Part shown: positions 21,926 to 53,207 of the stretch, in pieces
How the letters are laid out: each line of letters starts with the position of its first letter
Numbering within the stretch: the stretch's first letter is position 1
Source of the DNA: Spinacia oleracea
Taxonomy: Eukaryota; Streptophyta; Magnoliopsida; Caryophyllales; Amaranthaceae
NCBI RefSeq assembly: GCF_020520425.1
Contig: NC_079490.1
Location: 2,170,001-2,234,000 of the forward strand
DNA: 64,000 nt
Direction: 5' to 3'
Made by a program: the position numbers and the translations under genes
Notes under the pieces: model-generated
What the model was told of the DNA's origin: nothing
Seen by the model: only the letters and a program-made list of their open reading frames with translations
Database searches by the model: none

Positions 21926-22037
21926 ACTAACTCTTGCTTCTTCACTTTCTTAGTACTGTTAATTTTATCGCCAGTCAGCAATCTTGACAAAGTATCAGCT
22001 TGCTTCGTATTTCCCTCTTCGTTCAGGGTCTTGATTA
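21926..22037 (-). pseudogene. PPR gene 3' end fragment, copy A
   Basis: About 110 bp matching the last codons of the intact PPR gene (compare 29282-29394: stop region, GTATCAGCTTGCTT, TTCGTTCAGGGTCTTGATTA). It stops abruptly at about 22037, where the sequence switches to propeller exon 8. This is a duplication breakpoint. Confidence 0.85.
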
Positions 22038-22040
22038 AAC

Positions 22041-24376: not shown

Positions 24377-24389
24377 ACAGAAGCTCTCA

Positions 24390-24810
24390 TATAACACGCG
24401 CTCCGTCCAGAATTAATTGTCACATAGTCCCAACCCCTCATAATGAAGGATATGACATAGTTCTCTTGATTCTTGAAGAAGATAATAAAACAGCATTTTA
24501 GTGTGAGATGTAGCATGAAAGAGAGGATTAATTAGTAATTACAAAGGCGTAAAATAAATATGAAAGAGATCAGTAATGGTGAAAATCTGGTGTAACACGC
24601 CCTCCGTCCAGAATTAATCGCCACATAGTTCCCAACCCCTCAAAACCAAGGATATGACATTTTTCAAAATGCCCTTTGTTGAATTGTAGCATGAAAGATA
24701 TCAGTTTTGGTGAAAATCTGATATAACACGCCCTCCGTCCAGAATTAATTGTCACATAGTCCCAACCCCTCATAATGAAGGATATGACATTTTTTTTTTA
24801 ATGCCCTTTA
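24390..24810. repeat. Tandem repeat, three units, start of duplicate C
   Basis: Three units around 24397, 24600 and 24733 sharing CCGTCCAGAATTAAT and AAGGATATGACAT; paralogous to the two-unit array at 17210-17470. Unit number changed after duplication. Confidence 0.75.
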
Positions 24811-25039
24811 TTATTGGGTCATTATCATCCTTCCAACCTTCGCCATCTATTATTAAATAGTGGCATATTGGGAAATCTAATCATAAACCATCGGTGTATA
24901 TATCATAAACGAGTATGTGTGACATTTAATGCTGGACAAAGGGTGAAGATGTGCAGTTCCATGGACTGTCTAGGGGGCTTGTACATGAGATATGTGTCCA
25001 AAACCATTATGCACTTATTGGGTCTTGAACCTCCAAATA

Positions 25040-25232
25040 GGAGACCTGATCAACTATAGCCCGACCTGCTAGCCCGACCAGAACCAAAAAAGTGTGGGTT
25101 TGGGTAGCCTAAAATATAACATTTTTAGACCAAAACCCAATCCAGGCCGGGTGAGCCTGCACCAAATTTATGAGGTTGGGCATGATTTTGTGTGTGTGAA
25201 GCCCAGCCCGGCCCGAATTTTGATCACCTCTA
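25040..25232. repeat. GC-rich element, duplicate-C copy of 17685-17860
   Basis: Starts GGAGACCTGATCAAC and ends TTGATCACCTCTA. It has additional CCCGACC material relative to the paralogue. Confidence 0.6.
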
Positions 25233-26458
25233 CCTCCAATACACCTAAAAAAGGAAACTGAGGTTTATATTTGTGATTTTGTATGCTGATAGGAGTGGCT
25301 CAAGACAACCAACTACAAGAGCCATGGGTAAATCATATGCATCCACCCCATGCAAAGGTAGCAAGAGGTGTAGCAGGGATACCATACCAATTTGGAGGAC
25401 CCTTTTCCCATTCGATGACGGAAGGATAGCAGAACTTCATCTATCAGGTTTAGCGGGTGAAAATTCAGGACCAGATCATCATCAAATCAGTATCAGAAAA
25501 AGAACAATATCAAAATATTTGGTCAATATTAGATGCCCCTGAAACTGAAGGATGGAATGCAGAGTACTGTTCCGAGGAACGTGGGCCCACCAACTGCGTA
25601 ATGGGTGTAAAGGAATATGACACAGAAGATTTCACAAACACAAGAAGTATGACAAGAAGAAGGCGAAAGGGAATGCAGCAGAACTACTTGATTCCCGGAA
25701 TTTCTGACATCAAAATGGAAAAACCAGTGGAAGAAGAACAGAAAATGGAAGAGAATTGGGTGAATGTGAACTTTGGGATGAGAGTTATACAAGGTTTGAC
25801 TTATGAATATCTTTACAATGAACAGATCATTTTTTCTGGTGTCAAATTCTGGTTTGACTTATGAATATCTTTACAATGAACAGATCATTTTTTCTGGTGT
25901 CAAATGCTGGTTTGACTTATTAATATCTTTACAATGATAATGTAGGGTTGTGGCTGAAACATGATCACACAACAGTAATGAAAGGTGCAGTTGGGAGTTA
26001 TAATGGGAGTTTGTTTTTGGTTAATATTGATGGTAGTTTGTTAATTAGATAGAGAAGCAACAATGAGTTGCAGTGGATAAATTGTACTGCTATGAAGATA
26101 GGGAAAGAGATAATTGGTGGCCCTCCATGGGACAGGATTCATGGTGTAGGAAAGAAAATCACAGAAAATGATGCAATTTATTTTGTAAGCCGAGAACGGA
26201 AGACTTCTGCAGTTCACTGTAGTTGTGAAACACCAAAAATTCAAGTTACTAAAAGTTTGCTCAACTGCATTTTCCAATTGAAAAGAAGCAATTTTTTCCC
26301 TCTTGCTTTTAAGATAAGAAGCGTAACACTTGAAGTTGTTTCTTTTTAGTTCTTCCCATCAAGGATTTAGCTAGAATGATCTTTCTGATTACACAGTTGA
26401 AAAAATATAAAACCTGCACTAGAGTAGAGTGTTCACAACAACTACTTCTCTGTCAAGA

Positions 26459-26763
26459 TGTGATAAACTGATAATTTTGAGCAGAAAATTAATGGCAGAA
26501 ATATATTTAATTTGCTTGAAAGATGATAAACACAAAAAGGGGATATAAAAGTAGTGACTTGAGGCCACCAATCTCCAGAATTAGTGACTTGAGGTCACCA
26601 CTCTCCAAAGCCTAAGTTTTACCAAATTCTCAACATGACTCTTATAACCTAATGTGCCCTTATTTATAACTATTCTACTACACCTACGGACCTACCTAAT
26701 TTGTCTTCTACCTAATATTACTCACTATCTATTATGCACTTCCCTTACACTTGGTTCATTGCA
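26459..26763. mobile_element. Solo LTR (305 bp) in pseudogene copy C
   Basis: Begins TGTGATAAACTG and ends GGTTCATTGCA. A 5-bp duplication CAAGA lies on each side (26454-26458, 26764-26768). The intact paralogue reads CTGTCAAGAAATAATATTC at about 18961, a clean empty site. No internal retroelement sequence is present, so a solo LTR is the best reading. Confidence 0.85.
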
Positions 26764-27527
26764 CAAGAAATAATATTCATATACATTAGCCTTTTAGGAT
26801 CCCCGGGAAATTAATCTCCTCTCATTATGCATTCAAAGAATAGTTTTCCGATATTTTACCAAAATGGATTAACATAAGACACTATTGTCTAGGTTGCTCT
26901 CAGGAATTTTAAATGGAAAGACTGCAAAAACCCTAAAAATACAGAGGTTGCAACGATAGTAGACCAGGAAGTGTGTAGAGACAAGATAGTTTTTGTTATC
27001 GGAAGGAATGGACGTTTGTACAAATATAATGGATTGTCCGGATTATGGCACGAACATCATAAATCTCAGCACTTAGTTCTCTCAATATTACCTGGGACAG
27101 CTATGAGGCTATCAGCACTATCATTGGAAAGCTATTTATTCATGATTTCAAGAGATGGTGAACTAATTGAATATCACTGGAACTCACTTGATGGATGGAT
27201 ATGGGTTGAACACGGCACACCGAATGGGGTGAGAATAGCTGGAGCTCCAGGCCCAAGTTTTGCGGGTCACCAGTTGTTCTTAGTTGGGTCAGACGGGAAG
27301 GTTTACTTAAGGCACTTCGATCAAGGAGAGTGGAAGTGGAGAAACTGTGGTTTTCCAGATTTAGAAAGTGTGTCAGTTGAACAAGAAAGAGAGGAAAAAC
27401 TGAAGAATCGGAACGAAGAAGGAATCTGTTTCAATACTGATAGTCTGGATAATGCAGAAGAAGCTAAACTAAGGAATACTAACAAGATCGGTGATCCTAA
27501 GGTGAGTTTTAGATGTGTTTATTAAGG

Positions 27528-27830
27528 TGTCAAGGTGTCGTTTGGTTCATATAGGAAGTAGAATTTCCGATGAAATGCAAAATGAGTTCCTTAATTAAAT
27601 TTATGGGACATTCCTAAAGTTGTTTGGTTAACAATGTGGGAAGTAACTTCCCATGGGAATTTCTACTTACATAGGGGGGACTAGGTAAGCAAATTCCCCC
27701 ACTTTGTGGGAAGTTGAAATTCCTAGAAAGTTTCACTTCCCCCATTTCATCAAAAAACTCACACACTTCGAAATTCCTAGGAATTTTAACTTCCCATATT
27801 TTTGTATGCCAACCAAACAAAACCTAAGTC
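27528..27830. mobile_element. MITE, duplicate-C copy of 20138-20468
   Basis: Same ends and interior as the element at 20138-20468 with small deletions, at the same intron position, so it was inserted before that duplication. Confidence 0.7.
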
Positions 27831-28290
27831 TACATGGTTACACCAGTTTGAACTGCAGTGATAATTAACATATGTGAGCCGTCTGCTCCAGGTAGCACCT
27901 ACACGGGCAATTCATTCAGCGGAAAATAAAGTAATAATTGAGCTCGGGGATGGCAGAGTAAGCATTCCATATTTCCATCACAAAAAAGACCATTTCCATA
28001 CTTAAAATTTATCCAATATAATTGCTAAACCAACACAACTCAGTATTCAGTTTAGAGCAGAAAATTAAATGGTTTCCATTGAATAAGGATATTATTGGTG
28101 CATGCTCAACATATTTGAATCTCATAGAAGAATGTTTGCACACTAACAATCATAGCTAAATGCTCACCTTGTCATGTGACAGTTGGCAGAGATGCAACGA
28201 GTTGAGGACTACGATTGGATATGGTCAAAGATCATTGCAACTCCCACGAGCCTATGTATGGCAAATTTATGGGCTGCTGCTGCATCATGA

Positions 28291-29277
28291 AGCTGAGAAT
28301 ACAGACATAAAAGCACCTTAAAGATTGTTACAAGCATAATATTACAGAAAGCTCATTGGCTAGGAGATACTGAAATACACCTTACTGTACGTAGTAAAGC
28401 AATGACACCAAGCCTTCTTCCTTCGATCTAGCAGGACAAGATGAAGCTTAGAAGCATGAGCTACTAAGCGCGTAGTAACATACAATTGTCTCCAATGTAC
28501 TCTGTATAGTGTACATAACATACAAGGATAGATAGAACTATCAAAAAAAAAATCTGGTAAACCTGTCACGAAAGTATTTCTGATATTAAAAGCAGTAACT
28601 TCAATGTTTAGATACATGAACTTTTGTGGGTTCAGTACTTCAGTCAGATAAATACAGAATCCTACTGATGTATTAGTACTATTCTATGCAATCAACTACA
28701 CATGTTACATGTACATTATTGCGCGTATGTCATTACCTTTTGTCTGTTTAGGTGTTGATTAAGAATTTTTATGATTTTATCAATTCTGGTTTCAAGTTTT
28801 CAGTAGCCAAATGACAGTTTAAACTTTAAAGGTAATAGATATGGAGTACTTCACAGTACTACAATAGCCAAACTGTGTTGTAGTAGCCAAGCTAGTTCCT
28901 CGGGAAGTAGACCGAACAACCTGCTGAAACTCTGAAAGTATTTGATGAAACACCAAACACCATGCTGAAAGTTTTCTGAGGCAAAACCAAAAAACCTAAA
29001 TAACAAATCAAAACGAAAAGGAAAAGCCAAATGTGGCTTGATATTGTTGATACCTCGAAACAAGAATTCAAAACCCTGAATCAACGCGAAAGGGAATAAA
29101 ACAGTAACTTGTAGTCCTCAATTATTTATCCGGACTTGAAACATAAAGAATGGCTCTTTATATAAAAGACCAAATCCAGCAAGCATATAACAAAACTGCA
29201 AGATGGTATTGTAAATGGACATTACTACAAAAACCAAAACACTGATATTAAACCTATTAACTCAATGACCTAAAAAA
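28291..29277. other. 3' flank between propeller copy C and the intact PPR gene
   Basis: Third paralogue of the non-coding segment. Positions about 28895-29275 are also homologous to 60403-60768 downstream of RPS2. Confidence 0.7.
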
Positions 29278-31599
29278 TCAAGAAGCTACTAACTCTTGCT
29301 TCTTGCCTTTCTTAGTGCTGAGAATTTTATCACCAGTCAGCAATCTTGACAAAGTATCAGCTTGCTTTGTGTTTCCCTCTTCGTTCAGGGTCTTGATTAG
29401 ACTCTCGTAGTTGTTGTTCCTCTCAGTCACTCCACCTTTTAGTGATATTTTGCACAATATTGAGTATGCATTAAGAGTCTTGCCAGCACTTAAAAGGGCA
29501 TCCAACACCTTGTCATAGCTCGAAAACTCCAACGTGAAATCTCTCTCCAAAGAATAATCTAGAAGTTTCAGAGCAGCGATTGTCTTCCCCTTATCACTGA
29601 GAACAGATAAAAGATTATCAATATCTGGTGAACACCCACTTTGCATTAGTAACTCAATTCTTCCAAGTGCTTCCTCAACATGACCTCTCATGAACAGAGC
29701 CTCCAAAATCTTTGCACTCAAATCCATGTTTTCTGTCACACCCTTCTCCAACATTACCTTCATAACACGGCTAGCTGTTTGAACCCTTTCAGCGTTATAA
29801 AGACCCTCCATAACTGCCCTGAAAACCGCTGAATCAGGCAAGTGGTCATTCGCGATCATACTATCAAGAACAATTTTCGCATCAGCTGGTTCGCTCTTCT
29901 CCAAGAAACTATGGATGAGTAACTTGTAAGCATCCGCTGTTGATTTCACCCCTCTCCTAATCATGATATTCAACAATTCAAAGGCCGATTCAGGGTTGTT
30001 CTCTTTTGAATGCCCACGGATCAAATTATTGAAAGCAACAGGATCCTGGACACCCTTCTTCATCAGCTGCCTGAATAGGGTTTCAGCTTTTTGAGTGCCA
30101 CCATTGTTGCAGAGATATTCAATAATTGCATTATAAGAAGTTGGCTCCATATCCATACTACTTTGAGGACTCAAAATTATATCTTTCTCAATAAGCTTAT
30201 CCAATAATTTCACCGCCCTATCATACGCCTTAGCCTTACAGAAAGTTTCGATTAAGATCCCATAATGTCCAGCTTCAGTTGGGATGCTCAAACTCACCAT
30301 TCCTTTAAGTACATCTGCAGCAGCATCCAAGTTACCTGACTTACACTGACAATTCAATAACTTCACAAAGATTGAATTATCCTTCGGATCCCTCGGAGCA
30401 GCACGTCTCTCCACCATCTCCCTCAACACAGCTTGAGCTTCAGAAGCTTTCATGGCATCACAAAGTCCAGGCAAAAGAGTCGAATATGTAACAGAATTCG
30501 GCTTAATACCAAACTCCTTCATCTCCTCAAACATCCTAAATGCATCATCAACCTTCTCTGCCAAAACATAACCTTTAATCATAGTAGTATAGCTAATAAC
30601 AGTAGGAGCTATATTCTTCCCCTTCATCTCCACGAAAAACTTCTCCGCTTCCTCCACTTTCTTCAACCTATAAAACCCATTAATCATTGTATTATAAGTA
30701 ACCACATCCGGCATAATACCCCGACTAATCATATCCTCGTAAAACCTATTCGCAGTTTCGGCTCTTTGACACAGAAAGAAACCCCACAAAAGGATGTTAA
30801 ATGTATGTTTAGTAGGTGCAATTCCCTCCTCCAACATCTTATTATAGTACCTTTTCGCCATCATATACCTCCCTCGCCGCAATATAACCTTAAACAAAGT
30901 ATCATAAGACTTCCCAGTTCTCTCCACACCTAATTCCTTCATTTGCTGAAAAATCTTCACTGATTCCTGAACAATCTCATTCTTACCATAACTTTCAATC
31001 AAAACAACAAACATGTCTTCATCAAATTGCAAACCCTTTTTGGGCATATCCATCAGGATTTCCCGGGCATGATTTAGCTTCAATGAACGCCCTAATCTAA
31101 CAATGATTTTCATATGGGTCTCTCTATCATGCTTAAATAAACCCGACCGTTCGACCCACCGGAAAAACTGGAGCGCGTGGTCCGTTTTCCGGGAACTATC
31201 CAGCACACTCAGAACAAGAGATTGATCAAATTGGGGAACTAAATTACGAATTGAGTTCTGTAAACGGGTTGTCCAAGCTCTATTAGCCATCATTCTAGCA
31301 ATTATATCCTCTACTTTTTCTGGGGTTTGATTCTTACCTCTTGGAACCCTCTGATTCAGAGCAAGCTCTGTTCCTCCTTCAACCAATCGACCACCTTCCT
31401 GTTTCGCAGCATCATTGCTTTTCTCTTGGAGTGGATCAATGGAGGTGGGAGATTCTGGTAATGGGTCATCAATCGAAGTTGTTGAACAGAATTGCTTGAT
31501 GAGATTTAATGGGGTTTTGCTTGAGATCCCGTAAAACCCAGGATAAACCCTAGATGATGATCTCAGATTTTGCAGCTTTGAGCAAGAAATGTTTGCCAT
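29278..31599 (-). CDS. P-class pentatricopeptide repeat protein, At2g37230-like, intronless
   Basis: 773 residues in one exon, complete from MANISCSKLQNL to the stop at 29278. The N-terminal roughly 60 residues are Ser/Arg-rich and low in acidic residues, fitting an organelle targeting peptide. Residues about 110-710 form roughly 15 PPR units of about 35 residues (for example TYNTMINGFYRLKKVEEAEK, SYTTMIKGYVLAEKVDDAF, TYSTLLPGLCDAMKASEAQ). There is no E, DYW or SMR domain. The conserved stretch AWTTRLQNSIRNLVPQFD and the region NMDL.AKILEAL.MRGHVEEALGR match what I recall of Arabidopsis At2g37230. P-class PPR proteins bind organelle RNA; the target here is unknown. Two 3' fragments lie at 21926 and 23905. 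Upstream, 31800-31850 holds TGGGCTT and AGGCCCAAA motifs of the site II type. Confidence 0.93.
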   Translation of the reverse strand: MANISCSKLQNLRSSSRVYPGFYGISSKTPLNLIKQFCSTTSIDDPLPESPTSIDPLQEKSNDAAKQEGGRLVEGGTELALNQRVPRGKNQTPEKVEDIIARMMANRAWTTRLQNSIRNLVPQFDQSLVLSVLDSSRKTDHALQFFRWVERSGLFKHDRETHMKIIVRLGRSLKLNHAREILMDMPKKGLQFDEDMFVVLIESYGKNEIVQESVKIFQQMKELGVERTGKSYDTLFKVILRRGRYMMAKRYYNKMLEEGIAPTKHTFNILLWGFFLCQRAETANRFYEDMISRGIMPDVVTYNTMINGFYRLKKVEEAEKFFVEMKGKNIAPTVISYTTMIKGYVLAEKVDDAFRMFEEMKEFGIKPNSVTYSTLLPGLCDAMKASEAQAVLREMVERRAAPRDPKDNSIFVKLLNCQCKSGNLDAAADVLKGMVSLSIPTEAGHYGILIETFCKAKAYDRAVKLLDKLIEKDIILSPQSSMDMEPTSYNAIIEYLCNNGGTQKAETLFRQLMKKGVQDPVAFNNLIRGHSKENNPESAFELLNIMIRRGVKSTADAYKLLIHSFLEKSEPADAKIVLDSMIANDHLPDSAVFRAVMEGLYNAERVQTASRVMKVMLEKGVTENMDLSAKILEALFMRGHVEEALGRIELLMQSGCSPDIDNLLSVLSDKGKTIAALKLLDYSLERDFTLEFSSYDKVLDALLSAGKTLNAYSILCKISLKGGVTERNNNYESLIKTLNEEGNTKQADTLSRLLTGDKILSTKKGKKQELVAS

Positions 31600-31873
31600 T
31601 TTTCCAGATTAGCTGATAAATTAGAGGAAATGTGGGTAAATGATTGACTGGGTGACAGAAAGTTTCGAGCTTCTTGAGAAATCACAGTGATTTAGCCATT
31701 TTCAGGCGTATGAGTTGAGTTTGAGTTTGAGTTTGCGTTTGAGTCTGGTTAGGGTTTGTTTGAGATGGTGGAGTGAATTGGCAAGGGGGCTTTGGGTTTT
31801 GGTTGGGCTTACTCTTATTGGGCTTTTAGAGATACCCAAAAGGCCCAAACCCGTTTGTTATAGTTTTGGTTTC

Positions 31874-33869: not shown

Positions 33870-35015
33870 GTGGGTCTCCTTATCTCAGCTAGCCCTCGTT
33901 GGAGTTTAAATGGCAGAGTAGGGGAGCCATTAACAAGAATCGATGTCAATGCTGTCGTAACACACGTTTGTATCCACTCTCGCCAACGTGGAGGAAAGTT
34001 CATTTGTTTCAAAGTCCAGTCCAAATATCTCCATGATACACTATCAAAAGCTTTGTGGAAATCAAGCTTTAAAATAGCGGTTGCGGTTTTGTTTCTCCCG
34101 CAAGAGTCAATGAGTTCATTGGCGATGAGGGGGCATCTAGGATTTGCCTTCCTTTAATGAATGAGGACTGATTTGGGCTGACAATAGAATCCATGACCTT
34201 TTGAAGCCTCCTTGCCAGGAGCTTTTTGACTATTTTATAAACACAACCCACCATACTAATGGGCCTATAATCCTTAAAACCTGATGGGGTTTCAGTTTTA
34301 GGAATTAAGGTGATAAAAGTGTTGTTGCTTCCACGGGGGAGGCGAGAGGAGGCCCAGAATTCGTTCACCATGTCACAAATATCATCTTTTATGACTTCCC
34401 ATGAGCACTTGACAAACTTGAAGTTGAACCCGTCTGGGCCCGGACTTTTCGAGCCGTCACAGGAGTTGACTGCTTCTTTGATTTCCTCCGGGCTGAAAGT
34501 TTCTGTAAGGGATGAGGCTTGGTCAGGGCTCAGCTTTCGAAACTCCAGTGATTCAAACGTGGGTCTGAGAGCATGTGGTTCTTTAAATATTTCTTTGAAG
34601 AATAATACAGCCTCCCTTTTTAAGTCATCTGGCGAGTCCAGTACTTCTCCATTGATGGTGAGTTGTTCGATGTTGTTTTTGCGCCTTCGAATTGAGGCCA
34701 TTGTATGAAAGAACCTTGTATTTTGGTCCCCTCCTTAAGCCATGTTGTTCGTGAGGATTGAGCCCAATAAGCTTCCTTTCGTTTGAGCCAACTCCATAGC
34801 TCCCTTTGATCATTTTTCCGGTCATTAATTTCCTGTGTGGTGAGGTTTCTGTCATTTGCTAGCTGGTCCACATCGTGGATTCTTGCTTCTAGTTTGGAGA
34901 TATGTTCATCGATGAGGCCAAATTCTGCTATGTTCCATGCTTTCAGGTTTTGCTTTATTGCTTTCAGTTTATTCATGAGTGGTAGGTTTGATGATTGAGC
35001 CCAAGAGGCCTTGAT
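33870..35015 (-). pseudogene. LINE reverse transcriptase segment (inverted part)
   Basis: Minus-strand frames give NKLKAIKQNLKAWN, DGSKSPGPDGFNFKF, TFITLIPKTETPSGFKDYRP and MVGCVYKIVKKLLARRLQ, then, after a frame break near 34100, RWREWIQTCVTTA and SILVNGSPT. These are fingers and early palm blocks of plant LINE RT. The catalytic DD-containing palm block is not present before the end at 33870. Frame breaks near 34650 and 34100 make it non-functional. Confidence 0.85.
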
Positions 35016-35039
35016 TGATTTGATACCCAGCTCGATAGG

Positions 35040-35637
35040 GGAAGTTCGTGATTTAGTGCTTCTACGACTAAGTTGGTGGATAAAGGGATGGGGCGACCCT
35101 TTTCCCTACTCTTCAAATGAAATATTGCAGAATCCATCTTGCCTTCCATGGAAATCAAGCTGCCGTAGCCTAGCTCCCTCTCGAGCTGAAGCCTCACTGG
35201 TAAGAAACTGGTCTCCTCCCCCTTCAAACGTTCTTAAATGGAACGTGGATGCTTCAGCCAACAAAACCCTCTTCAAGGCTGCCATTAGAGGTGTACTTCG
35301 TGACAATAATGGGGCCTTCATCTGCCTCTTTTCCTCCCCTATACCGCCTATGGATATTAATAATGCGGAGATCTTGGCAATACACCGAGCAATCAAAATA
35401 TCCAAGAGCTGCGAACGTATCAGCTCCTTCACTAAACTCTTTATCGAACCAGACTCTGCTAATGCAGTTAAGTGGTGTAAGAAGAGTGAAGGCGGACCAT
35501 GGAACCTCAACTTTATCATTAACTACATCAGAAATGCATCACAAGTGGGGAATGAAATCAAAATCATTAAGGGCCGAAAATCAAATTTTGTGGTTGACTC
35601 AATGGCCAAGGTCTTGTTAGAACTGACGAATTTCTAG
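35040..35637 (+). pseudogene. LINE C-terminal RNase H domain segment
   Basis: Plus-strand frame with LKWNVDASANKTLFKAAIRG (first acidic residue region), NNAEILAIHRAIKIS, IEPDSANAVKWC and FVVDSMAKVLL, the order of a plant LINE RNase H. It ends at TAG 35635-35637, followed by a 3' UTR to poly-A. It reads open but has no start of its own. Confidence 0.85.
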
Positions 35638-40592: not shown

Positions 40593-42229
40593 AATTGTTA
40601 AAAGTATTAATAATATTTAGGGAATATTAATCATTGTATGTTATACGGATCATAAACTCATGACACTAAAAAAAACATTAATACTACAACTTTTTTTAAC
40701 ATACGGGATGATAGTGATTTGATATAAATCGTTTTTTCACGATAGCTATTGTAATTATTACATTAAAACGTTATTAAATACTATATTTGTTGATGAAATT
40801 ATTTATTTAAAAAAAATTAGATCAATTGGTGTTGATGAACGCATTTACGAAATATATTTTATTTTATTAACTTTTCGATAAATAATTATTAAAAATATTA
40901 CATACAAATATTTACGGAGTAGTAATCAAGGAACTATTTGAATGTGGAGGAACACAATGGTGTTCTTAATATGTGGGTGCAGAATTTATTGGACCAAAAC
41001 CTGAAATCCAATAAAATTTTGCTAAATTTTCTGAAAGCCGAGAACATGAATCGTCAACCAGCTAGCAATAGCCAAGATAAATTCAACTTTGTTTTGGCGA
41101 GCTAAAAATCAGGTTGATGTTGTATAGAACATTAGATGAAAACGCTATTTGTTTACTTCAATGAGTGGGTTTTTTTGGTGACGATGAAAATACAATTAAT
41201 GTTTTGATGATCCATAACTCACAATAAGTATACATTGGAAGCCTGTGGGGGTGCTCCATCGGACGTTAGAAACGTTGTGTCTCTAAAGGAAGCTCACAAG
41301 CCCCTCTACAAGTAAGTAAGAAGTATAAATGATAATTATTCCTCCATTTATACTTGCACTCACAAATAATATGCAACGTACGAAGTAACTGTAGGAAGGA
41401 GTACTGTAAAATCCGAAAATGAGAATAAAATGTGGGCCAAATATTTGATGTGTATAAAGTTGTGACGTGTTACAAAACACTGTCTTAGAAGAAAATTTCT
41501 CCCTGACTATGATGCAATCATAATAGGCGTTGCCCCCCAAGATTTTACACAGCAATTCGTTTTAACGTGCACTCGAATAAAACGGATTAGGAACTCATAA
41601 TATGCTCAGAATAAGACAGAGAAGAGATGAAGAGAAGAATGATTTTCAGTATGTCAAAAATGAACTCCCCAACTGATTTTATAGGGGGTCCAAAAATGTA
41701 ACCGAAAATCAGAGTTTTACGTGGGCAATAAAATCAGAATTAATTGGACAATAAAATCAGATCATCAAAATCAAAACTGAAGATCAGAATTAAAACGGAG
41801 GCGGGAAATCATGGAACCGTTTTCGTAATAAATGCGACCGTTACGTTTTTTATTTAAGAGTATGGAGTGAGCTACGTAACTGAACGGTCTCATAATAACT
41901 GGATCATCAGTTACGACTTGGCCCAAAAAGGAGGCCCCACCACACCGCGCACGTGCCACGGCGGACAGGCAGCGGCGTCGTGCGTGTGGGGATTCCCTTT
42001 TTAGTCCAAACCACTAGGGGAAGTACTTCAAGAATTAACAACACTTCCCTATATTTAAACAAAGGGAAATGTTCATTTTCTTTCCATGTAAGACAAAACC
42101 CTTTTCTTTAAATACTCCACTTGAAATCCCTACTTTTCATTTCTACCAATGTGGGACATTTTCACAAAATGGTAAAACTCTTTCTTTGCATTATTTCCAA
42201 CAGTAACATATTTTTTGGTATAATTATTA
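40593..42229. other. Gene-free region before the nested retrotransposon
   Basis: AT-rich with no coding signal. A small GC-rich patch at 41925-41995 includes GCGCACGTGCCACG (an ACGTG core) but no downstream gene was found to attach it to. Confidence 0.5.
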
Positions 42230-42309
42230 CTCCCTCCGTCCCAGATTAGTTGTTACATTTTCCTTTTTCGTCCGTCCCAGATTAGTTGTTACACTTCTAA
42301 ATTAGGAAT
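42230..42309. mobile_element. Stowaway MITE, left half, split by the LTR retrotransposon
   Basis: Starts CTCCCTCCGTCCCAGATTAG after TA (42228-42229). An internal direct repeat (CGTCCCAGATTAGTTGTTACA) occurs twice. It is interrupted at 42309, and the 5-bp GGAAT at 42305-42309 is the retrotransposon target duplication. The right half is 51271-51479. Confidence 0.88.
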
Positions 42310-42830
42310 TGTTGTGGGCACTTTTACGGTGCTGATGTGGCACGCGCTCCTCGGAGGTATCAAGTATGACTTGGCACGAACTTCTGGCAACCTGCAAAAC
42401 AAGAATATTCCCGTAGGAATATTACCTCCGATGCTTAAGTAAGTATAAGCTAGAGAGATAAGTGCTTTGTAGAGAGAAGGCAGAGCAAAGACAAGTTTGT
42501 TGTGGTTGGGCAAGAATTGAATGCCCTTTTACCTTGGGATCTGAGCTATTTATAGTGCTAGGGTTCCTTGGGGACTGCACCCTCAACCCTAACTATGGGA
42601 CACGTGCCCCTTGGGGATTTAGGACACGTGGCCTTTATCCTGCAATGATGGTCCTCCCATATTTGGACCGGCTTTTAAAGATAATGGGCTTTGCCCAATG
42701 GGGCTCTGTCTTTATTCTGGTGGAGTAGCAGGATTTTGGGCCTTCTTTCCAGGCCTGGGCCCATCTGATCAGTGTGAGTTCGTAGGCTGCCTCTTTGGGC
42801 TTTGTGGGAGATTTGTTCAAGCCCACATCA
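42310..42830 (-). repeat. 3' LTR (left copy)
   Basis: 521 bp, plus-strand ends TGTTGTGGGC and GCCCACATCA. Differs from the right LTR at about six bases, including two at the start (GGGCACTTTT against GGGAAATTTT). Confidence 0.95.
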
Positions 42831-42845
42831 TTTGCCCCTCATGAG
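42831..42845 (-). other. Polypurine tract candidate
   Basis: On the minus strand the 3' LTR is preceded directly by CATGAGGGGCAAA. Short and only partly purine, but in the right place. Confidence 0.55.
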
Positions 42846-42932
42846 GAGTGAAAACAGACGTTAGTTTTCACTGCTCTTCGAGTGTCTAACAGGGTGATGA
42901 CGCGTGGCAGGGGTAATCATTTCTTACCCCTC

Positions 42933-42940
42933 TATAAATA
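42933..42940 (+). promoter_or_regulatory. TATA box of the antisense gene in the retrotransposon
   Basis: TATAAATA in CTCTATAAATAAGTGG, plus strand, 103 bp inside the left LTR and about 190 bp before the leader intron donor (43123). Its position fits a promoter for the antisense transcript. Confidence 0.6.
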
Positions 42941-43292
42941 AGTGGCCAATTTGAGTGATTTTCCCCCTCATTTCCAGTGATCTCTTGAGAGCAAATAGGA
43001 GAAAGCGATTTCCGGCGTCTTCTATCCACCGACATCCACCGTAGCACCGCCACGATCTTCAAAGTCGTGTTCTTGCAGTTCTTCATCCAAGTTCTTTCAC
43101 AAACTCCCTTTTGATTTATCAGGTAAAGGTTTTCTTTGGAAAAATGTGTTTGTTGATTTTGATTCTTCCAAATTTTCTTCTTAGTCTTGCATGGGTCTCG
43201 TCAAACTGAAGGCGTCATCTTGTCCTGTTGACGTCTTCTGTTTTCAAGTTTGCCCCTGTTTTGAAGCAAATCTTGGGTTGTTGCAGGATTTA

Positions 43293-45588
43293 ATGGCGCG
43301 AATAGAAGACGAGGAGCAGTTTGAGGGAGAGTCCTCTTCTCCTATAGAGGACGTCCCAGAAAGCACCGATGCCGCGCCGGCTAGCACGTCCGGTGGGGAG
43401 GAAGGTCACCTTCATCCCAGCGCCATCTTCCCACTTCAGACGTGGCTGAATTTCCTCACTCTAGAGGGGAAAACCTTTGGGGCGTCTCTGAATCTAGGTT
43501 CGGAGTATAAATTCTGCATGCCGGCTGGCATGGACTGCACCAGCTTTGGACTGGTGAAAGCGGAGTTCGCCGTTTACGGCTCGTTTTTGAAGCTGGGTAT
43601 GAGATTCTCCTCTCACCCCTTTGTGGTGGAGTTGCTGGACAGCTTCAATATTGGCCTGTGCCAAATGTCCCCGAACTCCTGGGCGGGTGTGTTTGGCTAC
43701 ATTGCTCGCTGCGAGCTTGCCGGCATCACCCCTTCTCTTCCGGCGTTCCTAAGAATCGCCTCTATGTCTCAAGTTTCGAAAGCCGCCGCGGGCTGGCTGA
43801 TTCTTACATACAAAGGGGCCTATCGGACGGTGATGGGGAAGGCGTCTAAGTGGCATCACTGGAGGAAGAAGTGGGTGGTTATCAAAACCACCAATCTGGA
43901 GATGTGTGAGAGGATGAGACGCTGGAACGCCAAGCCCAACTTCGTTGGGAGAGGTGCTTCTTTACTTCCCATCTCCGCCGAGCTCTGGGAGCGGATCTCG
44001 TCGCTGTTCCTGGTCAAGCCGCTCGTCATCAAAGACAAGATGGCCTACATACCCGAGGGGTGGTTGCCTCATCTGAATCAACTGAGCAATCCCACTTTCG
44101 TCTCGGCTGTAGGCCTGTATCCGTATATGCCGAGAGGTAATGTATCTATACTTCCAATTCTTCTGTTTAATCAAAACCGCACTAAATGTCTTTATCTCGT
44201 TTTGCCAGACGAGGCCATGGGTCAGCTGGATGATGCCTCCAAAGGACAAGTGGACAAGCCGTGTTGGTTGGCGAAGGTACTCGATGTCAGTACCTTCAGA
44301 GCTTGAAAACGTCAGCAGGCAGCCGAGCAAGCCATTCATGAGCAGATGGCTCCCCCTCCTGCTGAGGAGGAGAAGGTATTAATTAAATCTTCAGACGTGA
44401 TTTCCTTTGTTGTTTACAACTTCTTTTTTTTCTATCATTTTTTTTTTAGAAGACGAGGAAGGCGAGCACGGACGCGGCTCCTACTCCCAAACGCAGGGCT
44501 GGCGGTACAGGGAGACCCGTCTTCAAGTCGATGACGTCGAAGGCTTCTAAGGGTTTTGCCGTCCCCAAGGCTGCATCTGCTTCTCCTAGCTTGGAGAAAA
44601 CTGGAGGGACAGCTGATCCCCTTGCGGGGATTCCTGAAGTCGTCCGCCGCAACATCCCTCTGAGGGCGGCGGAGAGAGCTAGGAATTCTGGGGGTAAGTT
44701 TTACTCCAACATCGTAACCACCTGCCATTCCTCGTCTAGCAGTTCTATAGTTTCCCCCAGGGATTCTAAGGCCGTTGTTTTTCCCATAGAAATTCCCGAT
44801 CCTCAGAAAGACATAGATGCTGAATTGGATCAGATCCCTTCTTCAGGCGGGTTCAATTCTCATGACCGTAGGAAGATAATGACGCTGATGCGCAGTGCCA
44901 TTCCTCCCCAATATGCTGAAACCCTTCCTGAGGCGGCCGAGAATATGTTTGCCGCCATGCAGTCCTCGGCGTTGGACGTAAGTTTCGTTATACCTTTATT
45001 TCTACACACTCGTTTCTTTTTGTTTGACTTACTATTTTTGCGCAGATGTTCATTCTGCTGGACTCGCTGAAAAAGTGGCGCACTGCTTTGGTGCATGAAG
45101 AAGCTCGTCACCGTCTTCTGGCCAGTCAGTGTGGTGACCAGCATTTTGCTACACTGGAGAAGCTTCGCTTAGACAGGCGGGAGCAGATTGACGATGTGAC
45201 TACCGCCCTGGCCTCTCAGAATGCTGAGAACACAACTCGTCTCCTGCATATTGATCAGAACTTTTCTGAAATGGAGGATCTTTCCAAGAAGATAAAGGAG
45301 AAAGAGGCTGAGTTTTCTCGTCTGGAGACTCAGTTTAAAGAGTTGGAGGTTCAACTGGAGGCGGCTAGCAAGGAAGTTGATTCGTCACAGAGTGTCCTCG
45401 CCCAGTCGGCCATGTTGGGTGAGAAATCGATCCGAAGGGGTTTGGAGCTTGCATGGAATGCTGAATTTGCAAGCGAACGTCCCTTCAGCTGGTTTGAGAG
45501 GTTTCTCACCTATCAGATTGAGGTGGAGAAGGCTCAAAGGGAAGGACGCACCCCTCCTGAGTTCGTGCCCAGCGAGGATGAGGAATGA
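43293..45588 (+). CDS. Antisense extra ORF of the Tat element (putative 'transposase 28'-like), four coding exons, one stop
   Basis: Runs opposite to the retrotransposon polyprotein. Leader intron 43123-43286 (GTAAAG..TTGCAG); start ATG 43293 (MARIEDEEQFEG). Coding exons 43293-44136, 44209-44375, 44450-44977, 45046-45588 join in frame, 693 codons plus stop. Residues about 40-260 (LTLEGKTFGASLNLG, GSFLKLGMRFSSHPFVVELL, WAGVFGYIARCELAGITPSL) resemble the Pfam family named putative gypsy-type transposon (Transposase_28), by recollection. The C-terminal exon is a Glu/Lys-rich coiled coil (FSEMEDLSKKIKEKEAEFSR). One in-frame TGA at 44304-44306 interrupts exon 2; it would be a CGA to TGA change. 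Antisense extra ORFs are known in Tat elements; their function is not known. Recently disabled, otherwise well preserved. Confidence 0.7.
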
Positions 45589-46121
45589 GTTCCTACGCGT
45601 CTTTGTTTTTATTAATGTGTTTTTGTTTTTTTTTTTTTTGCACATGTTCTTTTGACGCCATGCTTGGTGGCTTTTGTGCATAATTCTTGTAATTATGACT
45701 AACTTAATGGGAATGACATGATTCCCTTTTGAACGTCTTACTGCTTTTTAGCTTTCAGCATATTTTTTATGATTACGTCCGACGCCCCCTATTTGAGTCG
45801 TCAGATGTCTGCCCTGGTCTTTTTGCCAAAGTCTTTTGCTACTTTATATAGCTGTGTTAGGAATGTGTGAACCCTGTGTTCTAGGTGATCAGCCTAGTGA
45901 GGGTGCTAGTCTGTGCCACTTCTTAGGCCTTTAAACGACTAGTCTTTTTGGGAGAGCATTAGTTTGCATTTCTCCGAGAGTTTTGATGACATTCTTTTCA
46001 GAAGGATTTCTCAACAAGACCGGCTTGCAGTGAATTTTTCATTTAATGTTTTAAACATGCTACACGGTGCGTCTAGGCTCTAGACGTCTTTACAATGCAT
46101 ATAATCTAGACAAGTGTCAAT
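45589..46121. other. Region between the convergent 3' ends inside the retrotransposon
   Basis: Non-coding, T-rich just after the antisense stop. It contains the shared 3' flanks of the sense polyprotein and the antisense gene, which do not overlap. Confidence 0.6.
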
Positions 46122-49100
46122 CTAGAAAAAGTACTTCTTGAGGTTATCTGCATTCCAAGTACGCAAAATCGGACGTCCCTGCATGTCTTGGATCCGGTAT
46201 GTTCCGTCTCGAACCTCCTCGTAAATCTCATACGGACCTTCCCAAGTAGGGGTGAGTTTCCCTTGTTCATTGGCGCGTCCGACGGCTTCCATTTTCTTAA
46301 GCACAAAATCTCCAACTTTAAGTATTCTTCTAGAAACCCTTTTGTTGTATTCCCTTATCATGCGGAGTTTGTATAGCTGCTGTCGTAGAGCCGCATTCCC
46401 TCTGGTTTCTCGTAAGAAATCCAAGGCCGCCTTCATCATTTCTCAATTGGCATCTTCATTAAACAACATGACGCGCAGGGTGGGTTCGCACATTTCAATG
46501 GGTAGGACGGCTTCAGCCCCATAGGCTAACAAGAATGGTGTTTCTCCTGTGGAATTTTTTGCCGTGGTCCGTATAGACCATAAAACATTGGGTAACTCGT
46601 CGGCCCATAAACCCTTTGCCTCATCAAGCTTCTTCTTCATCCCTTCAGAGATAATCTTGTTGAATGCCTCTACTTGTCCGTTAGCTTGGGGGCGTCCTAC
46701 TGATGCAAAACATGCTGTGATACCATGGTCGGCCAACCACTCTTCTAATTTGGGCGTCTTGAATTGTGGCCCATTGTCGAAGACGATAGACTGAGGTACG
46801 CCAAATCTTGTGATTATGTTTTTCCAGATGAATGTTCTCACATCCTGTGCCTTAGTGTTCTTTAAAGCCTCAGCTTCTACCCATTTAGTGAAGTAATCGA
46901 CGGCTACTATTACATAACGCAGTCCTCCTAGCGCCGTCGTATAGGGTCCTAATAAGTCTATCCCCCATTTGGCAAAAGGTATAGGGATGGTGATTGGCGT
47001 CAGTTTCTGTGCTGGTCGTCGAATTAGGTGAGCAAATCGTTGGCATTTATCACAACGCTTGACCATATTGAGGGCGTCTTCTTTGAGAGTGGGCCAATAG
47101 TATCCAGTTCTTAAAGTTTTTTCGGCCAGGGCCCTCCCTCCTATGTGGGAGCTGCATAATCCCTGATGAAGATCTTCCAGTACCTCTTGCCCCTTCTCGG
47201 GGGTTACGCAGCGGAGAAGTGGTCGTGATAAGGCTTTTTTGTATAGTGTTCCATTCCATATCTCAAACCATGTACATTTCTTTTGTAATCTTTCTGCCTG
47301 CTTGGGATCATCAGGGAGTACTCCATTCATTTTGAAGTTGACAATGTCATCCATCCAGGTGGCTGTTCGATCCAAGATGTCTATTCTCGAGGCGTCAATG
47401 CTTTTGGACTGTTTTACCTCCCAGAATACATGACGTGGCGTGTCGCAGGATGCTGAGCTTGCCAGTTTAGATAAAGCGTCTGCCTTGTTGTTTTCAGACC
47501 GGGGGATGTGTTTTACTTCAAAGTTAGACAGCTGTTGGGCTTCTTGGCGGACTTTTTCCAAATATCTTATCATGGCCTCGTACTTAGCCTCATACTCTCC
47601 TTTGACCTGACTGACAATTAATTGCGAGTCAGACAAAACGAGGACGTCTGCTGCCCCTGCAGCTCTGCTCATCTGAATTCCACATATCAGGGCTTCGTAT
47701 TCGGCTTCGTTGTTTGACGCCTGAAAGTTGAATCGCATTGCATATTCATAGATATCTCCTTCTGGTGACTCACAGATAATGCCGGCTCCTGACCCGTTCT
47801 GAGTAGCAGAGCCGTCCACATGCACTATCCACTGAGTTTTTTCATTTTTCAAATAGGGTGGCTTGGTCAGTTCCGCGATGAAGTCAGCAAATGCCTGTCC
47901 CTTTATTGCCTTCCTTGGTTCATATGAGATATCAAACGCGTGAAGCTCAATTTCCCAATTAAGCATTCTTCCTGACGCTTCAAGGTTGGTGAAAGGTCGC
48001 TTAAGCGGTTGATCCGCGTATACCACCAATCGGTGGGCCAGGAAATATGGACGAAGCTTCTTACTAGCCAAGAACAGAGCAAAACCAAATTTTTCGACCG
48101 TTGGATATTTGAGTTCAGCATTTTGCAACATGTGACTGACAAAGTACACACGTAGTTGCGTTCCCTCCCTCTCTGTAAGCAAGACGGCGCTTAGCGCGTA
48201 TTCTGAGATGGCAAGATATAGATACAAAATTTCCCCCAAGAGAGGGCTGACCAGCCGTGGCAAGGTGTGCAGATGTTCTTTTAGGCGGAGGAAGGCAGCC
48301 TCAGCTTGCCGTCCACTCAAACTGGGTCCCCTTATTGATGGTACTGAAAAAGTAGTGACACTTGTCTCCAGCTCTAGATAAGAATCGTCCCAAGGCGGCG
48401 AGACACCCAGTGAGGCGTTGCACGTCTTTAACCGTCCTTGGCGACGTCATATCAATGACCGCTTGCACTTTGTCCGGATTTGCTTCAATGCCCCTTTCGT
48501 CAATCAGGAAGCCAAGGAACTTGCCAGAAGATACCCCAAATATGCACTTCTTAGGATTGAGTCTCATCTGGTATGTCCTGACGGTTTCAAAGGTTTCTCT
48601 CAAGTCGTCAAGGTGATCCTTCTTCTGCTTGCTTTTTACAATCATGTCGTCAATATAGGCTTCTATATTCCTCCCCAGCTGCTTTACGAAAACTCTGTTT
48701 ATCAACCGTTAAAAGGTAGCAGGGGCATTTTTTAAACCGAACGGCATTACTTTGTAGCAGTACAATCCTTGTTCTGTGACGAAAGACGTCTTCTCCTGAT
48801 CTTCGGGCCATAATGGAATTTGGTGGAATCCGGAGTAGGCGTCCATGAAGCTCATCATGGCATGTCCAGCAGTGGAGTCGACGAGTCGGTCTATCTTCGG
48901 CAGTGGGAAGCTGTCTTTAGGGCATGCTTTATTGAGATTAGTGTAATCAATGCACATTCTCCATGTCTTATTGGGCTTGGGTACCAGGACTACGTTGGCT
49001 ACCCAGTCTGGGTACTGGCATGGGCGTATGAAGTCTGCATCCATTAGTTTCTTGACCTCGGCAGCGGCGGCCAAATTTCTTGCTTCTCCATGATTCCTTT

Positions 49101-50748
49101 TCTTTTGTCGTACTGGCTTCACAGTACTGTCCACATTCAACTTATGCACGGCCACCGCCGGGTTTATACCGGGCATCTCCTCTACTGTGAAGGCAAATAT
49201 CTCCTTATATTCTTGGAGTAAATGCACTAACGCTGTTGACATGGGGTCGTCAGGATGGATCCCAATGGGGACTGTTCGAGACGGATCCGCTAAGTCCAGA
49301 ATTACATCATAAAGTGCTCCCACTGGCTCAGGTCGTCTTTCTGCATTGTGCTCTGTCGGAATTTTCCGGGTTTTACGGCGACTCGCTGGAGGTTTAGTTT
49401 GTTCCTTTCCCTTCGGAGAAGCTCCCCAGGCCGTTGGCTCCAACGTCGACAAGTAACAATCCCTGGCCAACTGTTGATTTCCATAGAGGGATCCAACGCG
49501 TCCGTTGCTTCCAACAAATTTTACCAATAGTAAATGGGGGACGATCACAGCTTTTAGGTCGTTGAGTGTTGGACGACCAAGTATGATGTTGAATGTGGTG
49601 AGATTTGCCACTATTATAAACCTGATGGCAACTTCTTTGACTACTGGGTGAATTCCAAAAGAAACCGGCAGCAAAATGGAACTAATTGGACGAACGATGC
49701 TCCCCCCGAATCCTACCAAGGGCCCGTAAACTTGCTCTATGTCTCCTGGATTGTGCCTTAATTTCCGCAGGCATTGCAGACTGATTATGTCAGACGAGCT
49801 TCCCGTATCCACCAGTACTCTCTTTACCTTAAGATTAGCCACCTTAACCTCAATAACCAGAGGATCATCATCATATGGTATGGCCGCCCTTCTATAGTCG
49901 TCTTCGGAAATTTCTACAGAGGGTAGGTTCCTCTGTGCTGGGCGAAGATGAGGTGGACCTTTTTGTCGTCCCTCCTTACATGGTTCTCCTGCCGCTATTC
50001 CTCCGGATATTACCATAATTCTTTCATTTGTGTACTTAGAGGTGGGGCTCGCTTCTTCATGTGCGTCCTCTAGATGGACGTACTGGCGAAGGTGTCCTTC
50101 AGCCACGCGACCAGTTAATATCTTCCTCAACATCCGGCAACTTTGAGTGTCATGCCCTTCGTCGTTGTGAAAAGCACAGAAAGGTACTTGTGGGCAGGAG
50201 GTGGACGATCGTCGGGGAGACGGTTCTATTCCCAGACTTGGTCCTTCCGCAAGGAGGATCTCGTCAAGGGCCATATTGAACTTAAAGGGACCTCTAGAGG
50301 ACGTCCTCCTTCGCCCCCGTTTTCCTTCGGAGCTACAGCCATTCTTCCTTCGGGCGACGCTCTCATGTTGTCTTACAGGAGCCCCTAGAGAGTAACGGTC
50401 CGCATTTTTCTTCTGCAAGATTCGTCTCGTCCTTTTTCCTGGACGAACCTCCTTGACATGCCGACTAGCTTCCTCCAGGTTGCGCCACCTCATAGGCGAG
50501 TCAGAATCTTCTGACTGAAACTCTACCATCCTACCATTATCATGCTTAGGATTGACCCCGTGAGGACCATCCAGCAAGGGTCGAACAGGAATGACGACCG
50601 CAGGCTGGCTAGCTGCCGCGTCACATTGAGTGTTGGACCCGTGCTTAAACACTCCTTTTCTGGCTGGGAGTTCTGATTTATCCTTGATTTTTCCGTAGTC
50701 AGTTGGAAGTTCAGCCATGACACTGTACCTCCCCACAGACGGCGCCAA
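46122..50748 (-). pseudogene. Tat-type polyprotein (gag remnant, PR, RT, two RNase H, integrase), disabled
   Basis: Order on the minus strand. A gag remnant has C-x2-H-x4-H-x4-C at about residue 191 (CAFHNDEGHDTQSC) but no gag core. Protease has VLVDTGSSSD (about residue 311). RT has CIDYTNLNKACPKDSFPLPK and EAYIDDMIVKS. The first RNase H is around YFVSHMLQNAELKYPTVEK. The second RNase H (HVDGSATQNGSGAGII, ASNNEAEYEALICGI, VLSDSQLIVSQVKGEYEAK) is typical of Tat. Integrase has an HHCC finger (SSHIGG..CDKCQRFAH), GIDLLGPY, FDNGPQF and GQVEAFNKII. Breaks: TAA at 48709-48711 in RT, a frameshift near 48310, and TGA at 46443-46445. The last part to 46122 is a chromodomain-free tail (KVGDFVLKKMEAVGRANEQG). 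Confidence 0.93.
50731..50747 (-). other. Primer-binding site
   Basis: Minus strand TGGCGCCGTCTGTGGGG, two bases after the 5' LTR end. TGGCGCC starts are usual for plant Ty3/gypsy primer sites; the tRNA is not assigned. Confidence 0.75.
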
Positions 50749-50749
50749 A

Positions 50750-51270
50750 TGTTGTGGGAAATTTTACGGTGCTGATGTGGCACGCGCTCCTCGGAGGTAT
50801 CAAGTATGACTTGGCACGAACTTCTGGCAACCTGCAAAACAAGAATATTCCCGTAGGAATATTCCCTCCGATGCTTAAGTAAGTATAAGCTAGAGAGATA
50901 AGTGCTTTGTAGAGAGAAGGCAGAGCAAAGACAAGTTTGTTGTGGTTGGGTAAGAATTGAATGCCCTTTTACCTTGGGATCTGAGCTATTTATAGTGCTA
51001 GGGTTCCTTGGGGACTGCACCCTCAACCCTAACTATGGGACACGTGCCCCTTGGGGATTTAGGACACGTGGCCTTTATCCTGCAATGATGGTCCTCCCAT
51101 ATTTGGACCGGCTTTTAAAGATAATGGGCTTTGCCCAATGGGGCTCTGTCTTTATTCTGGTGGAGTAGCAGGACTTTGGGCCTTCTTTCCAGGCCTGGGC
51201 CCATCTGATCGGTGTGAGTTCGTAGGCTGCCTCTTTGGGCTTTGTGGGAGATTTGTTCAAGCCCACATCA
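50750..51270 (-). repeat. 5' LTR (right copy)
   Basis: 521 bp, about 98.8% identical to the left LTR by manual comparison; followed by GGAAT. Confidence 0.95.
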
Positions 51271-51479
51271 GGAATGACCCCACAATTATTGTATTGTCTC
51301 TCTCTTCCCACTATTTTTTTTTGCTCCCTACACTCTCTCACATTCAATTAAAAAAATACTCCACTAACTCCTATCACATCTACTTTTTCAATAAAATAAC
51401 AATTGATAACCAAACAACCACTTATCACTTAAAACTTTGTGCAAAGGTAAGTGTAACAACTAATTTGGGACGGAGGGAG
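51271..51479. mobile_element. Stowaway MITE, right half
   Basis: Continues the element begun at 42230. Ends GTAACAACTAATTTGGGACG then GAGGGAG, inverted to the left end, followed by TA (51480-51481). Confidence 0.88.
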
Positions 51480-53207
51480 TATTATTATTTTGATGGGTAT
51501 GAATTTTTTTTATGAAAATAAGGCAATTTTTAATTTTAGCACCTAAAAAACCTAACTTCGTTTTTAGCACTGTTGAATTTATTTTAGAGAAATTTTTACG
51601 GTGACCATATCGCGTAGTTTTTTTTCTACACAGTTAACACTAAATATTTTCATTTTCTAAGGTAACCTTGTGGTTTAGTATATGTCATTAGCGTGCACTG
51701 ATAATGCTTCTAACAGCTAGCCCAGTCCTAAATGACTGATTTGACTAATCTATCCCCAACTTTAAGTACCCACACATTTTATTACTCTCTCCATCCCTAA
51801 ATGTTTTTTCCATTTGTCATTTTACGCGGTTATTAAGGAGAATGAAACATTGGTGGTGTTTGGTTGTTAGAGGTTTGGTAGAAAATTAGAGGATTTGAGC
51901 AACTTAGAGGTTTGACCTTTCAAAACCTCTAATTGGGGTGTTTGGTTGTTCGAGGATTGGAATAGCTTATTCTCCTCAAACCGCTAAATAAAAAAAGTAG
52001 CCCATAGCAGCGTTTTTGAATAGGATTCAGATTTTAATGTGGATTTCCAATATTGTCCTCAACAATCTACTGCATTTCTTTAATTCATTCTACTACATTC
52101 CATTAATTGATTCTCTTTCACCAACCGTTCGAAATGAAGGTCTCTCAAAATTAACTCTCTCGAACTTTCACCTTCATAGTAGATCAGAATCCTTCCTTGT
52201 AATTTTTTTTCTTTCTCAATTTTGTTCTTATTATTTACTGCCCTTTTCTATTTGTCTTGAATTTTTTGTAAATTATTTCTGCATTTTTTTTCCTTGTTTT
52301 TAGATGATATTTTTTCTGTTTTTTTCCCCTACCCCTGCGTTTTTTTTCTACCTCCTGCGCACTAATATTTTTTTATTTTTAGAAGATCTTCTTGATTTTT
52401 TTTTTCTCTCCTTCTGCCTCCTGCGGTTTATTTTTTTTGATAATTTTCTATGTTTTTTTTGTTTTTCTTCCATTTTATCTCCTCCTTTTACTCTTTTTTT
52501 GTTATCTGATTTTTTTTTCTTGATTAATTTTTGCTTTCTTTTTTAACTCTCCTACCTGCGCCAATTTTGGGGGAAATTTCTGTTCTTTTTTTTTATTATT
52601 TTTATTTTCTAGCTTGTTTTTTTTGTGTATATTTTTTCCTGGCTTGTTTTTTCTATGTTATCTGATATTCTTTTTTTTACTCTCCTGCTCCACTCCTTTC
52701 TTCTTCTTTTTTAATTTTTCCTCTTAATTTCCCTCCTCCCCTGCCTCATTGGTGTAATTTTTCTGATTTATTTTAAAATTTTCTGTTTTTTCTTCTATTT
52801 TTTTAATGTTTTTTAGATTAATTCATAAATGGACTTCAATACAACATTAATATACAAACTATAAAGTTCATCTCACAATTTTATTTTAGATATTAGTAAG
52901 AGAATATTATTTATTTATTTATTTGCACAAACATGTACAAAAATATATTATTACATGTATATCTATCATATTAACAATTTGTACTTTTAAGTTAAACAAT
53001 TTAATATGACATGTCCTTATTTGTCATTTTACATATTTAAACAGCTAACAGCTAACAGCTATTTACCAAACACTTTTATGCAAACTGCTAATACAATCCG
53101 CTAGTCAAAACTGCTAATTCAATCAGCTAGTCAAAACTGCTAATTCAATCCGCTACAGCTAACCGCTAACCGCTAATCACCAAACAGGGCCATTATAAAC
53201 TGAAATA
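51480..53207. other. Gene-free region with a T-rich tract
   Basis: 52190-52830 is strongly T-rich with scattered CTCCTGC words. 51853 (GGTGGTGTTTGGTTGTTAG) and 53191 (..TCACCAAACAGGGCC) could be degenerate hAT-like ends of one 1.3-kb element; no matching target duplication was found. 53040-53185 has short CAGCTAA and CTGCTAATTCAATC repeats. Confidence 0.5.

Follow-up and report, generated by a model that had tools for sequence, protein, structure and literature searches.

We analysed a stretch of 64,000 nucleotides of Spinacia oleracea DNA (contig NC_079490.1, positions 2,170,001 to 2,234,000 of the forward strand), here called the window; all coordinates below are positions in it. The subject is a long terminal repeat (LTR) retrotransposon at 42310..51270 and a gene that it carries in antisense orientation. 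The retrotransposon reads on the minus strand. The gene is encoded by the plus strand, in the interval bounded by the end of pol (46122) and the 3' LTR, tail to tail with pol and without overlapping it. Its exon structure and its TRP28 domain (see below) argue that it is very probably a spliced TRP28 gene belonging to the element.

The gene begins with a putative TATA-like box, TATAAATA, at 42933..42940, followed by a non-coding leader exon (42965..43122, its start deduced from the TATA box) that ends in the donor cag/GTAAAG and by a leader intron of 164 nt (43123..43286, GC content 0.39). Coding exon 1 (43293..44136, 281 aa) starts at the ATG at 43293 and is separated by intron 2 (44137..44208, 72 nt, GC 0.33), which is open when retained, from coding exon 2 (44209..44375), where an in-frame TGA occupies 44304-44306. 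Intron 3 (44376..44449, 74 nt, GC 0.23) leads to coding exon 3 (44450..44977, 176 aa, net charge +8), and intron 4 (44978..45045, 68 nt, GC 0.32, donor gac/GTAAGT) to coding exon 4 (45046..45588, 180 aa plus the stop, net charge -11), with a heptad pattern at about its residues 74-115. All four introns have GT-AG borders. The coding exons join into one frame of 694 codons, including the end stop at 45588, with the TGA at 44304 as the single internal stop. A sequence-only reading of this DNA had proposed the TATAAATA at 42933, the leader intron, the four coding exons with their GT-AG borders and a frame open except for one TGA; all of these are present, and the observation of a spliced antisense gene is confirmed at the sequence level.

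Exon 1 matched the Pfam family PF04195 (Transposase_28 or TRP28, 'putative gypsy type transposon') at residues 95-155, with an E-value of 8.8e-10 and 39.1 bits versus a cut-off of 26.2. No Pfam domain was found in exon 3, and the coiled-coil-type Pfam matches of exon 4 were all below cut-off. The heptad score of exon 4 was reached by none of 500 shuffles of its own residues, while that of exon 1 was reached by 290 of 500. The protein had been described earlier as a globular first part with a coiled-coil end; the coiled coil stands, whereas the first part, left unnamed there, corresponds to TRP28 (PF04195), and its predicted fold was unusable (pLDDT 34).

The exon model was compared with chance by a search over 43293-45588 in which a path could contain no more than three GT-AG introns (60-200 nt each) and one stop. 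The longest spliced path on the plus strand had 720 codons, versus 694 in the proposed model, and the longest paths in 60 dinucleotide shuffles averaged 326 (sd 43, maximum 436). The opposite strand of the same region gave 458, and in 25 other tiles of the window, both strands included, three paths exceeded 468, two of them over gag-pol and one over a PPR gene. When no stop was allowed the best path still had 693 codons by a different route, since alternative splices can skip the TGA. One such splice, from a donor at 44276 (aag/GTACTC) to the acceptor at 44450, joins exon 3 in frame and stop-free, as do donors at 44249 and 44285, and it could be the normal form of the gene, with a product of 660 aa from which the TGA is excluded. 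The 99 nt that it omits are exon-like in composition (GC 0.556, T 0.18), and we consider this form unlikely.

Plant introns are typically low in GC and rich in T. The exons of the gene had GC contents of 0.51-0.56 and T contents of 0.18-0.25, and its introns 0.23-0.39 and 0.40-0.57, respectively. With a codon-usage score trained on five open reading frame (ORF) stretches of the window, the proposed frame ranked first of six in all four exons. For intron 4, the proposed pair of borders keeps the most codons among the 15 stop-free in-frame joins found in 180 GT-AG pairs. For intron 2, two of the 28 stop-free in-frame joins among 298 pairs keep more codons than the proposed pair. For intron 3 there was one stop-free join in 223 pairs, not the proposed one; here the TGA falls within the tested flank. 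It is also conceivable that the gene is real but mostly unspliced, so that exon 1 through intron 2 would be the working TRP28 ORF and the downstream frames separate ORFs or relics. The frame 43185-44306 is indeed open across the 72 nt of intron 2, and antisense ORFs of this kind have been reported without splicing (PMC11963269). However, that frame ends at the TGA within exon-like sequence, introns 3 and 4 are of plant type (GC 0.23 and 0.32, T 0.57 and 0.50), intron 2 is T-rich as well (0.40), and the lengths of introns 3 and 4 are those needed to join frames that are each the best of six. A mostly unspliced gene is therefore quite unlikely.

Several observations weigh against a spliced protein-coding gene of the element. 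The codon-usage scores are modest, those of exons 1 and 3 being negative in absolute terms (-0.044 and -0.033) and best only relatively; intron 2, stop-free and a multiple of three in length, is not required by the frame; the copy examined has its one in-frame TGA; and a scan of genome_contigs with exon 1 as query returned no relatives. On the protein side, the heptad test was inapplicable to exon 3, which lacks a proline-free stretch of 42 residues, and in exons 1, 3 and 4, scanned crudely for motifs, the only basic clusters were two short ones, both in exon 4. AlphaFold2 run on exon 1 as a single sequence gave a mean pLDDT of 34.4, so the fold is not usable, and a PDB sequence search with exon 1 (up to E 1) returned one chain at E 0.11, taken as chance.

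The TGA could be taken as the sign of a dead gene lineage. We rejected this, since the 6 differences in 521 LTR positions lead one to expect, under neutrality, about 12 substitutions and 0.45 new stops in the frame since insertion (probability of at least one, 0.36). The TGA fits neutral decay after insertion and is no argument against function in parent copies; by the same token, the near-intact frame of one copy is no proof of present selection. Scans of viral_contigs with exon 1 and pol as queries gave no confirmed relatives, and a pol-like locus from the pol scan of genome_contigs (L001, 27% identical) was set aside as its contig is labelled bacterial.

The host element is a whole retrotransposon of 8961 bp. 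Its LTRs, the 3' copy at 42310..42830 and the 5' copy at 50750..51270 (521 bp each, minus strand), are identical at 515 of 521 positions, with 6 mismatches, and both ends of the element are flanked by a target site duplication (TSD) of 5 bp, GGAAT. Next to the 5' LTR lies TGGCGCCGTC (50730..50747, minus strand), which resembles a primer-binding site, and next to the 3' LTR lies GAGGGGCAAA (42831..42840, minus strand), presumably a polypurine tract. The LTR pair and the TSD, both computed, and the latter two sequences, recognised by reading, are the features of an LTR retrotransposon inserted through RNA.

A single open frame at 48712..50748 on the minus strand has ends that resemble gag, a part that resembles a protease and the beginning of the reverse transcriptase (RT), the last with a match to part of the RVT_1 profile (Pfam, E 2e-16). 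The protease match was sub-threshold (E 0.031) and no capsid domain was found with Pfam up to E 1; we presume that the frame contains gag and a zinc knuckle. The rest of pol occupies 46446..48446 on the minus strand, an open frame with RT_RNaseH_2/RT_RNaseH at residues 47-171, RVT_3 at 210-328 and the integrase domain rve at 490-586, and its C-terminal part, 46122..46442, lies downstream of an in-frame stop. The RVT_3 match is assumed here to be the second RNase H (aRH). According to PMC6317226, a second RNase H marks the Tat clade, and its position between the first RNase H and the integrase marks Ogre and Retand. Our element has a second RNase H besides the RT-linked one and its rve match follows both, in agreement with the Tat assignment of the sequence-only reading. 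The antisense TRP28 lies in the region between pol and the 3' LTR (42831-46121), about 3.3 kb long, and the range of this region in Retand is 2,933-6,566 bp (PMC11963269). From the two RNase H domains, the antisense TRP28 and the length of this region we classify the element as a Retand-like Tat element.

The pol frame is broken by stops near 48709 and 46443 and, between 48304 and 48446, by what appears to be a change of frame, and RT is interrupted in the copy examined. With an interrupted pol frame, a sub-threshold protease and no Pfam match for capsid, this copy is not autonomous. The gag-to-RT frame 48712-50748 is open over 679 codons in spite of the undetected capsid domain; possibly it went through an in-frame deletion and was mobilised in trans, and GAG-less Retand clusters exist (PMC11963269). 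Tandem arrays, present in about half of the Retand clusters (PMC11963269), were absent from the element apart from three trivial rows, and Rfam at gathering thresholds gave no matches in 42000-52000.

The retrotransposon is nested in an apparent miniature inverted-repeat transposable element (MITE). Its flanks span 42225-42309 and 51271-51484, its inverted arms of 42 nt (42225-42266 and 51443-51484) are 90% complementary, and its ends, CTCCCTCCGTCCC, adjoin TA; presumably it is of the Stowaway type. Elsewhere the window contains ORFs that resemble beta-amylase, TFIIB, PPR and ribosomal S2 genes, names that we assigned by eye, and we take it to be plant nuclear DNA. A complex duplicated block (17149-24378 and 22493-29757) consists of five pieces of 393-2621 bp that are 86-93% identical, and includes two copies of one ORF, at 19509 and 26893, and a PPR gene at 29278-31608 with a fragment at 24019-24531. 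At 34069-35637, pieces resembling a LINE-type reverse transcriptase (minus strand), read by eye, lie beside an RNase H-like ORF on the plus strand.

The window contains 10 occurrences of the octamer TATAAATA, where 7.4 would be expected, and the chance expectation of the octamer on one strand of the 462-nt leader is about 0.03. Alone, it is weak evidence. The same octamer is common to both LTRs (42547-42554 and 50987-50994, sense strand) and the antisense leader (42933-42940), that is, twice in sense and once in antisense orientation. A scan of 42831-43130 for bacterial-type promoters and terminators, which is not suited to a plant gene, found nothing. For gene23 of the maize element Grande, transcription from its own promoter and a nuclear protein have been reported (Gomez-Orte 2013, via PMC7264820). 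Given this analogue and the putative TATA box, a separate promoter for the present gene is plausible.

Like the present gene, gene23 is antisense and lies in the 3' internal region of its element. The closest published counterpart is the TRP28 ORF of Retand (Vicient 2025, PMC11963269), which shares with our gene its location between pol and the 3' LTR, its antisense orientation and the TRP28 domain. Of the 63 clusters of recent Retand elements in that survey, all but two (97%) had antisense TRP28, which is considered characteristic of Retand and is predicted to bind DNA; in maize, Silene and other plants, Retand reaches copy numbers in the thousands. The 63 clusters contained 104 antisense ORFs of at least 600 bp, of which 72 had recognisable domains (57 with TRP28; 17 other domains), and 11 Smc domains were recorded among the antisense ORFs. 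Going by these counts, the Smc-type domains of a cluster might be in other ORFs than TRP28; in our gene, by contrast, TRP28 and the coiled coil are in different exons of one spliced frame. The ORFs of that survey came from ORF Finder, a single-frame method, and in its text the word 'intron' is absent and 'splic' and 'exon' appear solely in the reference list. An earlier survey (Neumann 2019, PMC6317226) used getorf with a minimum of 250 codons and found TRP28 in 23% of Retand elements. In a single-frame view, exons 3 and 4 of our gene amount to 179 and 180 aa, below the length bound of the surveys.

The gene-prediction programs FGENESH and GENSCAN allow introns. With both of them, ORF2 was predicted in 15 Ty3-gypsy families of Phaseolus (Gao 2014, PMC4093653); it encodes 211-939 aa, with an SMC domain in some cases, and like the present gene is antisense and located between the retrotransposase and the 3' LTR. 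A word search of that paper gave neither 'intron' nor 'exon'. Splicing in plant LTR retrotransposons is known from Ogre and EVADE (PMC6317226, PMC12786077), which a 2025 review gives as the exceptions among elements generally without introns (PMC12786077). The Ogre intron differs from ours in that it belongs to the sense transcript, between the gag-protease and RT-RH-INT frames (RH, RNase H; INT, integrase). Outside plants, HBZ of HTLV-1 is antisense, spliced and transcribed from a separate start, and its protein regulates transcription (PMC1459196). The likeness is one of working, with no claim of sequence kinship, and HBZ, unlike the present gene, starts inside the 3' LTR and belongs to an animal retrovirus.

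Taken with these analogues, the locus is best explained as a Retand-like Tat element that would bear, in tail-to-tail orientation with pol, an RNA polymerase II gene built like those of the host. A TATA box of its own, immediately inward of the 3' LTR, would be followed by a leader exon without coding sequence, the leader intron and the four coding exons. The product, some 690 residues long, would combine the TRP28 domain with a basic central part and a C-terminal coiled coil. The gene would be transcribed from its own promoter, and its transcript would undergo splicing and export in the manner of host mRNAs; the protein might then pair via its coiled coil, enter the nucleus and bind the DNA of the element, where it would most likely regulate the transcription of the element or shield it from silencing. 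We propose this role of nuclear regulator or anti-silencing factor tentatively, because of the nuclear location of gene23 and the predicted DNA binding of TRP28 in print. The antisense transcript rather than a protein could also act, for example as double-stranded RNA with the sense RNA, and an RNA role has been raised in PMC7264820. Yet a spliced coding frame of this length, complete with family domain and heptad pattern, would be unexpected for such a role, and the gene has no overlap with gag-pol; we regard action through the RNA as improbable. That the gene is a host gene captured by, or a DNA transposon inserted into, this one element is very improbable: introns, an own promoter and the antisense orientation do resemble a host gene, and extra ORFs have been suggested to stem from several sources (PMC6317226), but no inverted repeat of at least 20 nt was found around the gene (shorter ends remain possible) and no second copy of it within the window. 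An ancient capture is possible as the origin of the gene family.

If the element carries a spliced TRP28 gene, the introns would be inherited unchanged, because splicing would affect the antisense transcript only, whereas it is the sense RNA that replication copies. The same logic had been put forward in the earlier reading and is sound, as a copy bordered by LTRs and a TSD still has its introns. Parent elements may express and maintain the protein, as the earlier reading proposed.

The class of gene is already known (PMC11963269), and is less new than the sequence-only reading had assumed. In the examined literature, partly in excerpts and excluding the original paper on Grande gene23, a multi-intron form is undescribed, and this may be the new point. 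Single-frame ORF surveys, among them the two large ones, would catch only part of such a gene and miss its C-terminal half with the coiled coil, so that in other elements the antisense ORFs of TRP28 and Smc type may perhaps be exons of one gene, a prediction of the model. It is quite conceivable, at somewhat less than an even chance, that the antisense ORFs of Retand, whether TRP28, Smc-type or domain-free, represent for the most part the exons of a single ancient gene with several introns and a promoter of its own, maintained since before the monocot/dicot split, and that single-frame surveys have fragmented this gene and understated its size and conservation. Vicient and Casacuberta have urged attention to antisense and spliced transcripts (2020, PMC7264820).

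Should the gene be spliced, the protein would be nearly twice its single-frame length, with TRP28 linked to a coiled coil, and its actual form could be cloned and tested. The element would also illustrate cleanly how introns can persist through replication via RNA, namely in a gene encoded by the uncopied strand. Intron comparisons between plants would help to distinguish an origin from a host gene from one in an older mobile element. If the wider reading of the Retand ORFs is true, antisense genes with introns would belong to the regular equipment of a major class of plant retrotransposons, and would be an independently arisen strategy like that of HBZ.
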